Of a stretch of DNA of 64,000 bases, positions 18,671 to 20,913 are shown one piece after another. Under the pieces are notes generated by a model. It saw nothing but the letters and a program-made list of their open reading frames with translations. It did no database searches and had not been told where the DNA came from. Numbering within the stretch: position 1 is the stretch's first letter; each line of letters opens with the position of its first letter. Source of the DNA: Gemmatirosa kalamazoonensis (GTDB lineage: Bacteria > Gemmatimonadota > Gemmatimonadetes > Gemmatimonadales > Gemmatimonadaceae); assembly GCF_000522985.1 (NCBI RefSeq), contig NZ_CP007128.1:434001-498000 (forward strand), in the 5' to 3' direction. The position numbers were made by a program, and so were the translations under genes.

Positions 18671-19018
18671 GTGCCGATGATCGCCGCCGAGCTGAACGAG
18701 CCGCTGCAGGTGCTCCGCCTCGAGTTCATCAAGATCATGCAGCGGGGCACCGGCGTGCCGACGGTGGAGGCGGTGCTCGACGCGGAGCCGGCGATCGTGC
18801 GGGTGTGCGCCGCGGTCGTGCGACTCGGGCGTCACTGCGCGCTCGACGGGCGGCTCATCATCGGGACGGTGATGCACGGCGTCGCGTCGGGATCGAACGT
18901 GCCCGTGGCGGCCGACTGGCTCGCCGCGCGGTGGATGCGCGTCGCGATGGATGCGGTGGACCACATCGGCGTCCCCTGCGGGCCGGTGACGACGGACGCC
19001 ACCCGGCCGACGGCCTAA
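18671..19018 (+). CDS. Hypothetical protein
   Basis: A 115-codon frame beginning GTG CCG ATG (18671 or, as ATG, 18677). Codon third positions are almost all G or C, as in neighbouring genes, which supports coding. The product is acidic to neutral, with an alpha-helical N-terminus (ELNEPLQVLRLEFIKIMQ) and no clear membrane segment. I recognise no family. No good ribosome site is visible; a GCCTAAC heptamer lies directly upstream. Its TAA stop overlaps the TAG stop of the convergent small membrane protein. Confidence 0.55.
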   Translation: MPMIAAELNEPLQVLRLEFIKIMQRGTGVPTVEAVLDAEPAIVRVCAAVVRLGRHCALDGRLIIGTVMHGVASGSNVPVAADWLAARWMRVAMDAVDHIGVPCGPVTTDATRPTA

Positions 19019-19158
19019 CGCGGCCGCGCCCGACGCCGCGTGCCGCGCGGCGGATGCAAGAGCATCAGTGCGTACAGCGGCAGCGATCCGATCACCACCA
19101 CCCCGTAGACGACCCCGGCCTCGACCCAGCCGGCGACCGTGCTCAGCAGCGTGCCCAT
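19015..19158 (-). CDS. 47-residue single-pass membrane protein
   Basis: A short gene with a strong ribosome site (GGGAGG, seven bases before the ATG at 19158). The product has one hydrophobic helix (AGVVYGVVVIGSLPLYALML, residues ~14-33) and a basic tail (HPPRGTRRRARPR), so the C-terminus is probably cytoplasmic. I do not recognise a family. Size and shape recall small accessory subunits of respiratory or transport complexes, which is only a possibility. Its promoter carries a CRP-like palindrome placed for class II activation. Confidence 0.7.
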   Translation of the reverse strand: MGTLLSTVAGWVEAGVVYGVVVIGSLPLYALMLLHPPRGTRRRARPR

Positions 19159-19192
19159 ACCGCGGCCTCCCGATCCCCTCTGAAGACGCGAG

Positions 19193-19236
19193 AGAATACC
19201 CGGATCGCCGGCCGGCTTATGTGAGCCGCGTCACAT
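19193..19236 (-). promoter_or_regulatory. CRP/FNR-family site with -10 box (class II geometry)
   Basis: ATGTGA, six bases (GCCGCG), TCACAT at 19219-19236 is a perfect match to the CRP-type consensus TGTGA-N6-TCACA. On the minus strand a TATTCT -10 box lies at 19198-19193. A start site about seven bases beyond would place the palindrome centre near -41.5, the standard class II activator position. A further ATGTGA half-site lies at 19245-19250. The controlled gene is the 47-residue membrane protein. Confidence 0.7.
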
Positions 19237-19251
19237 CGGAACGCATGTGAC

Positions 19252-20913
19252 TCAGTCCATTGGGGTAGCGGCCGGGAGCGTCAGCGTGAACGTGCTCCCC
19301 TGCCCCGGCGTGCTCTCCGCCGTCAGGTCGCCGTCCATGCCGCGGGCGAGGTCGCGGCTGATCGCCAGACCGAGTCCGACGCCCTGCTGGCTCGCGGGGG
19401 TGCGGTGCCGGTCCACCTGCACGAACGGCTCGAAGATGCGCGCCAGGTGCTCGGCCTCGATCCCGCGCCCGGTGTCGCGCACGACGAGCCGCACCACCCC
19501 CGCGTCGGCGTCCGACTCGCACACGAGCATCACCTGCCCACCCGGCTCCGTGAACTTGATGGCGTTCGTGAGGAGGTTGAGGAGAAGCTGCCGCAGCTTC
19601 TCCGCGTCGGCCCGCACCACCCACGGCGGCGCCGGGGGTGCCGGCGCGCATGCGTGGTGAACGAACGCGAGCCCCTTCGCCGCGAGCTGCGGGGCGAGCA
19701 GTGCCTCCAGGTCGTCGACGACGGTCGCGAGCGCCACGTCGGCCCGCTCGAACGCGACCTGCCCCGACTCCAGCCGCGCGAAGTTCAGCAGGTCGGTCAC
19801 GAGCCCCGTCAGGTGCTGGTTCGCGCGCCGGATGCGTGAGATGTCCTCGCGCTGCGCGTCGGTGAGCGGGCCGCGGAGCCCGAGCTCGAGCAGCTCCGCG
19901 TAGCCGCCGATCGCGTTCAGCGGGGTGCGCAGCTCGTGGCTCACGGTCGAGAGCAGCTGCCCCTTCACCCGGCTCGCCGATTCGGCCTCCTCCCGCGCCC
20001 GCTCGGCCTCGGCGCCGCGCGCCTCGAGCGCCTCCGCCTGCTCGTGGAGCTCCAGGTTCAGCGCCTCGAGCTCGATCGCCTGCTCCTGCAGCCGCTCCGC
20101 GGCGTCCTCGGCCTCGACCCGCGCCGCGTGCTCGGCCTCGGCGTGACGCTCCTGGGCGCGCTCGGCGGCCGCGAGCAGCAGGGCGACGACCAGCACGCAC
20201 ACGGCGGCGGCGAGCGTCTCGCCGAAGACGGCCAGACCCATCAGCTCATCGAGCCGGCGGTCGGCGGCGGTGCGCGCGGCGAGGAGCCGCCGCTCCTCGG
20301 CGCCCACGGCCGCCACCGCCACGCGCACGGCGTCCATCTCCGCCTTGCCGCCGGCGAACAGCGCCGTGACCTCCGGCGCGGACATCTGCGCCGGCGCGCG
20401 GGCGCGCACGAGCGCCACCGCGGAGTCCAGGTGCGAGAAGACCCGCGTGAGCCGGGCCTCGAGGGTGTCGAGCCGCCGCTGCTGCCCGGGGTTGTCGACC
20501 GTCAGGCGCCGGAGCCGCTGGAGCTCGCGGCGGGCGTCGCCCTCGGCGCTGGCGTACGGGTCGAGGAAGCGCGGCACGCCCGTCGCCGCGAAGCCGCGCA
20601 CGCCCGTCTCGGCATCCACGGCCCGACCCTGCGCGGCCTCCAGCGAGGCGAGCACTTCATAGGTATGCCCGACCCACGCGGTCGATTCCCGCCCCCGCTG
20701 CGTCGTGCCGAACGTCAACAGCCCGAGGAGCACCACGGCGGCCACCCCGAAGGCGACAGCAGCGGCACGCCGCCCTGGCGTCAGCGCCGGCGCCGCGGCG
20801 CGGGGGGCGGAATGCCGATCGGTCCGGTCTCGGGAGGTGAAGGCCAGAGTTCGAGGACGTTGGAGGGGCGGGAGGCGCCGGGAGGCGCCCGACGGGTCCG
20901 GGCCGGGGGGCAA
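19252..20913 (-). CDS. CHASE3-domain sensor histidine kinase
   Basis: A ~553-residue membrane kinase. A first transmembrane helix (AAVAFGVAAVVLLGLLTFG) precedes a CHASE3-like extracytoplasmic four-helix sensor with the typical AETGVRGFAATG. A second helix (ETLAAAVCVLVVALLLAA) leads into a coiled coil. The HisKA motif is STVSHELRTPLNAI, and the HATPase domain has NLLTNAIKF, DTGRGI and GVGLGLAIS. No receiver domain or adjacent response regulator is present, so the partner is elsewhere. The furthest upstream start is TTG at 20913 with no ribosome site; a shorter start is possible as long as the first helix is kept. Confidence 0.88.
   Translation of the reverse strand: MPPGPDPSGASRRLPPLQRPRTLAFTSRDRTDRHSAPRAAAPALTPGRRAAAVAFGVAAVVLLGLLTFGTTQRGRESTAWVGHTYEVLASLEAAQGRAVDAETGVRGFAATGVPRFLDPYASAEGDARRELQRLRRLTVDNPGQQRRLDTLEARLTRVFSHLDSAVALVRARAPAQMSAPEVTALFAGGKAEMDAVRVAVAAVGAEERRLLAARTAADRRLDELMGLAVFGETLAAAVCVLVVALLLAAAERAQERHAEAEHAARVEAEDAAERLQEQAIELEALNLELHEQAEALEARGAEAERAREEAESASRVKGQLLSTVSHELRTPLNAIGGYAELLELGLRGPLTDAQREDISRIRRANQHLTGLVTDLLNFARLESGQVAFERADVALATVVDDLEALLAPQLAAKGLAFVHHACAPAPPAPPWVVRADAEKLRQLLLNLLTNAIKFTEPGGQVMLVCESDADAGVVRLVVRDTGRGIEAEHLARIFEPFVQVDRHRTPASQQGVGLGLAISRDLARGMDGDLTAESTPGQGSTFTLTLPAATPMD

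Follow-up and report, generated by a model that had tools for sequence, protein, structure and literature searches.

We propose, with moderate confidence, that a class II-like CRP-type promoter behind a sensor histidine kinase gene of the soil bacterium Gemmatirosa kalamazoonensis drives the expression of a lineage-restricted, single-pass membrane microprotein of 47 amino acids (aa). The locus lies within a 64-kb stretch of DNA that we analyzed whole and refer to as the window. The proposal names a CRP-type target that could be tested at little cost in the Gemmatimonadota, a phylum for which a limited literature search brought up no study of start sites or of a cAMP regulon. It also defines a microprotein family that is unnamed and known so far only from the genome of this species, and the presence of four distinct members in one cultured genome makes their expression and effect directly testable. 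The features of the locus, in window coordinates and with the basis for each, are as follows.

18671-19018, plus strand: convergent 115-aa ORF that shares 4 bp with the end of the small ORF and is without a Pfam match (ORF list, Pfam)
19015-19158, minus strand: 47-aa ORF, a predicted single-pass membrane microprotein, MGTLLSTVAGWVEAGVVYGVVVIGSLPLYALMLLHPPRGTRRRARPR (homology, structure model, architecture scan)
19159-19186, minus strand: 28-nt leader running from the predicted +1 at 19186 up to the start codon (+1 inferred from the -10 box)
19166-19171, minus strand: Shine-Dalgarno (SD)-like GGGAGG, 7 nt before the ATG (sequence)
19193-19198, minus strand: -10-like box TATTCT (sequence)
19219-19236, no strand assigned: CRP-type palindrome ATGTGA-N6-TCACAT, centered at 19227.5, or -41.5 (sequence, genome-wide count)
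19245-19250, plus strand: lone extra half-site ATGTGA just past the stop codon of the histidine kinase gene (sequence)
19252-20913, minus strand: sensor histidine kinase gene (CHASE3-HisKA-HATPase) upstream of the small ORF (domain matches)

Promoter layout and candidate regulator

Read along the minus strand, the end of the kinase gene at 19252 is followed by the lone half-site, which there reads TCACAT (19250-19245), the palindrome, which reads ATGTGACGCGGCTCACAT (19236-19219), the TATTCT box, the leader with its GGGAGG, and finally the 47-aa ORF, which begins 93 bp after the kinase gene. Class II CRP promoters are defined by the position of their site. The position of TATTCT sets the +1 at 19186, and the center of the palindrome, a TGTGA-N6-TCACA dimer site of the kind found at class II CRP-dependent promoters, falls exactly at -41.5 from this predicted start. 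TATTCT matches four of the six positions of TATAAT, a generic hexamer that may not be the -10 element of this phylum. The original prediction had described a perfect palindrome, a TATTCT box at class II spacing, and a ribosome site ahead of a tiny ORF, and all three are present. A generic sigma-70 scan detected no promoter at the locus; such a scan needs a -35 box, the element whose place a class II site takes. A hairpin or terminator reading of the leader was set aside, since its predicted fold is no better than that of shuffled sequences and a terminator scan came back empty.

The layout is like that of the class II CRP promoters of Escherichia coli, as in the semi-synthetic CC(-41.5) promoter, in placing a TGTGA-N6-TCACA inverted repeat at -41.5 from the predicted start, before a -10-like box; it differs in belonging to a Gemmatimonadota genome and in having a start that is predicted from the sequence. 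The report on CC(-41.5) describes that promoter as CRP-dependent, with a TGTGA-N6-TCACA motif, and E. coli CRP sites in general as inverted TGTGA repeats separated by 6 bp (PMC12360894).

The 7.48-Mb genome (7,479,215 bases) contains a single exact copy of the 12-base palindrome, against a third-order Markov expectation (model trained on 1.2 Mb of the genome) of 0.017 copies per genome and 0.00015 per window; the observed frequency of half-sites leads to an expectation of 0.004 palindromes per genome. Hexamers resembling a -10 box, defined as matching at least four of six positions with A2 and T6, occur at 0.0012 per position, and thus one is expected at a single exact spacing on either strand with a frequency of ~0.002. 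Three of the seven ATGTGA/TCACAT hexamers in the 64-kb window cluster within 32 bp. When as many as two mismatches are allowed, the genome holds 41 sites versus 2 for the reversed pattern, a control that misleads because it contains TA-bearing words in a genome of 72.5% G+C. Spacing was a better guide: in 1.264 Mb, GTGA-Nk-TCAC occurs 50, 34, 53, and 45 times at k = 3, 6, 9, and 12, 26 times at k = 0, and 2 to 9 times at all other spacings, and its intergenic occurrences in the same sample number 9 for N6 versus 10, 11, and 12 for N3, N9, and N12. These counts follow the codon period with no N6 excess and so do not reveal a large CRP regulon, and a regulon drawn from the 41 near-matches was dropped on the strength of this control. 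The palindrome at 19219-19236 stands out singly, not within a visible regulon.

A search of the genome with PF13545 returned 12 matches, 8 of them above the cut-off, and we read the helix-turn-helix (HTH) sequences of five. The protein encoded at G000:C2:3407075 combines a cyclic-nucleotide domain and a Crp-type HTH with the helix GASRETVSR; among the five, it alone carries the GASRETV recognition helix. Its best bacterial matches in the PDB are 4byy and 4cyd (E 2.3e-34), labeled there as CRP/FNR family regulators, which we take to be GlxR of Corynebacterium; GASRETV is common to both proteins in the alignment with 4byy. The genome also holds two class III cyclase-domain loci. Given this GlxR/CRP-like protein and the two cyclase-domain loci, a factor that reads TGTGA, namely a cAMP/CRP-type activator with a matching recognition helix, is encoded in the genome. 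GlxR of Corynebacterium glutamicum, to which the closest solved bacterial CRP-family structures belong, is described as mostly an activator that binds sites of the form TGTGANNTANNTCACA (PMC4254451). The Gemmatirosa system departs from GlxR in its GC-rich spacer, CGCGGC, where the GlxR consensus has NNTANN, and in the absence of a detectable large regulon of the palindrome word. The quality of the site, its spacing, and the regulator that the genome offers make a CRP-type, activated promoter probable, in keeping with the class II-like architecture that had been predicted.

We regard it as possible, if on balance unlikely, that the small gene is real and that its palindrome is read by another CRP/FNR-family protein or by an unrelated dimeric regulator, possibly a repressor or one that also engages the half-site at 19245. 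The dozen PF13545 matches supply other candidates, the core of the site is common to Rex-type TTGTGA sites, and the third half-site, ATGTGA at 19245-19250, is only 8 bp from the palindrome. The flanks of the site (ATGTGA.. ..TCACAT), however, misfit the Rex consensus (PMC2883068), the helix shared with GlxR occurs in only one of the five HTH sequences read, and the -41.5 spacing fits activation.

A family of predicted small membrane proteins in one genome

Searched with tblastn against its own genome, the 47-aa protein has relatives at C3:125512 (E 3.1e-5), C3:17350 and C3:70410 (E 2.1e-4 each), and C2:1928164 (E 0.0038), while the best match among 98 other genomes of the bacterial family has an E of 0.031. 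The C3:17350 and C3:70410 copies, 53,060 bp apart, show no difference across the 6,041 bases compared; the microprotein family thus has four distinct members, the window copy and three others, at five loci. Each of the six pairs of members outscores every one of 2000 full and 2000 block shuffles, and the alignment has seven invariant residues (A9, E13, Y18, V21, P27, Y29, and R41 in the numbering of the window protein). Homology starts at the ATG in three of the four members, and a clear SD sequence precedes only the window copy and the C3:17350/C3:70410 copy. In codon composition, GC3 is 0.90 and GC2 is 0.54. Substitution counts between paralogs, such as the 7 synonymous versus 18 nonsynonymous codons between the window member and the member at L022, carry little weight either way. 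Taking together the four members, the start shared by three, the SD sequence, and the contrast of GC3 with GC2, the 47-aa ORF is very probably a gene.

The spacing of the two identical copies (G000:C3:14400-20500 and 67400-73500) agrees with the 53-kb tandem repeat published for the 1,106-kb element of G. kalamazoonensis KBS708 (PMC3974934).

A single-sequence AlphaFold model of the 47-aa protein consists of one helix spanning residues 2 to 34 (mean pLDDT, 87), and with the paralogs it upholds the expectation of a small membrane protein that has one helix and a basic tail. We scanned the window and 60 blocks of 20 kb (1,044 ORFs of the relevant length in the blocks) for ATG-initiated ORFs of 35 to 60 aa that have a membrane-like segment and carry four or more basic residues among the last 15, and the small membrane-like, basic-tailed ORFs recovered were exactly the five family loci (5/5); four of the 60 blocks had been picked as paralog bearing, and the other 56 yielded none. 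Pfam, NCBIfam, and PHROGs gave no match to the window protein, and for the other members they gave only single weak matches (best E, 0.033).

A profile search of 178 other genomes of the bacterial family and 394 other genomes of the phylum, two sets that overlap, found no convincing member. The search scored part of the first-look candidates in each genome (38 of 85 in the Gemmatirosa genome itself), so that a very divergent member could escape it, and the genus Gemmatirosa is represented in the searched set by one genome. Profile matches outside that genome reached at most 22 bits, the strongest lying within ORFs of ~460 codons; a tblastn match in genome G087 was rejected since a stop just precedes it and no start codon occurs at the match. 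No relative came up among plasmid records or in GTDB and viral contigs.

The neighborhoods of the paralogs are unrelated to one another. One copy (C3:17350/C3:70410) adjoins the toxin-antitoxin pair BrnT/BrnA in a region repeated in tandem, another has an enolase-like gene on one side and, on the other, a PAS-type kinase gene ~1 kb off, and a third follows a nuclease-like gene (labels for the latter two were assigned by eye). No CRP-like site occurs within 300 bp upstream of the three other distinct members, where the best candidate has five mismatches, as random 300-bp stretches most often do. We also compared 11 loci bearing homologues of the kinase, of which eight were readable past the kinase stop; the kinase could not be located by motif in two, and the stop fell outside the locus in one. 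None of the eight has a membrane-type small ORF of the kind sought in the 500 bp after the kinase stop, and the best palindrome there has three mismatches, a comparison that is weak because the kinases are paralogous and not proven orthologues.

The proximity of one copy to BrnT/BrnA bears on an improbable alternative in which the 47-aa ORF encodes a toxin that acts on the membrane, as part of a type I-like module for addiction or stress. Its small size, hydrophobicity, basic tail, single helix, and restriction to one lineage would suit such a toxin, as would the scatter of four distinct copies over the chromosome and the 1.1-Mb element, a megaplasmid. Type I toxins, however, have structured leaders, unlike the leader here, which is short and SD bearing and folds no better than its shuffles (z-score, -0.79); an antisense RNA, sought by means of Rfam only, was not seen, the Rfam search having returned no matches. 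We give slightly less credence still to the view that the palindrome is nonfunctional and the ORF spurious: GTGA-N6-TCAC is not enriched, but chance would have to account for an exact consensus, an exact spacing, an SD sequence, and a paralogous family with a shared start codon at one locus. Finally, although subunits of the CydX/CcoQ type are similar to the 47-aa protein in size and topology and one family member weakly matches Cyt_c_ox_IV (E 0.14), it is highly improbable that the protein is a respiratory oxidase accessory subunit, as that match is at noise level in one of four members and no oxidase gene was recognized next to any of the four copies in the neighborhoods listed, where most of the neighboring genes were judged by eye. 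The suggested link to respiration or carbon supply accordingly finds no backing in adjacent oxidase or transport genes, in Pfam, NCBIfam, or PHROGs matches, or in the unrelated settings of the paralogs.

Proposed mechanism and meaning

Under our preferred reading of a CRP-type promoter serving a membrane microprotein, the GlxR/CRP-like regulator would bind the palindrome at -41.5, where it would stand in for the -35 contact and bring RNA polymerase to TATTCT. Initiation there would yield a short transcript that carries a strong ribosome site, and its 47-aa product would be a single-pass inner-membrane protein with a helix at residues 2 to 34 and a basic C-terminal tail, on account of which the C terminus is probably inside. 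We infer this sequence of binding, activation, transcription, translation, and topology for the 47-aa gene. Transcription may also run on from the kinase gene into the small gene, since no terminator-like site was found between the two; the CRP-type promoter would permit production of the microprotein independently of the kinase gene.

MgrB and AzuC of E. coli are small single-helix membrane regulators under the control of a global or sensor-linked regulator. The Gemmatirosa protein is like them in its size, its one helix, its lack of an enzymatic domain, and its predicted control, and unlike them in matching no sequence family. By analogy, the conserved Glu/Tyr/Pro-x-Tyr face might dock onto a larger membrane protein and modulate it, a tentative suggestion for which the adjacent CHASE3 kinase is possibly the first candidate partner of the window copy. 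The kinase-modulator reading is weak because only the window copy, and none of the others, lies directly after a sensor kinase. Doubtful as we consider it, the fullest version of the idea would make these proteins a new Gemmatirosa-specific family of cAMP-tuned single-helix membrane regulators, with the chromosomal copy behind the CHASE3 kinase gene as a CRP-induced modulator of that kinase; if true, it would establish a microprotein link between cyclic-nucleotide and two-component signaling in the Gemmatimonadota.

Other TGTGA sites and a Rex-type group

The genome contains eight exact TGTGA-N6-TCACA sites. Two of these, at G000:C2:610010 and C3:209316, both begin TGTGACGCG and lie shortly upstream of genes, the former of an APH-M23-aminotransferase fusion and the latter of a gene for a xylose-isomerase-like TIM barrel, which diverges from another ORF; they are possible further targets of the same regulator. 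The 16-mer TGTGAGCCGCGTCACA occurs once more, at G000:C2:3422247, where long open frames overlap it on both strands, so that it is probably inside a gene.

Three of the eight are of the Rex type, TTGTGA-N6-TCACAA (G000:C2:3054956, C2:3986215, and C2:4184656), and the core word alone consequently has no power to name the factor. The Rex consensus is TTGTGAAW4TTCACAA (PMC2883068). We considered a Rex operator (TTGTGAA-N4-TTCACAA) for 19219-19236 and rejected it, given that the site reads as shown above and the three genomic Rex-type sites fit better. These three lie upstream of atpA, a Rex-like gene (Put_DNA-bind_N and CoA_binding domains), and a multiheme cytochrome/molybdopterin oxidoreductase pair, an arrangement suggesting that energy metabolism in Gemmatirosa is under a Rex regulon.
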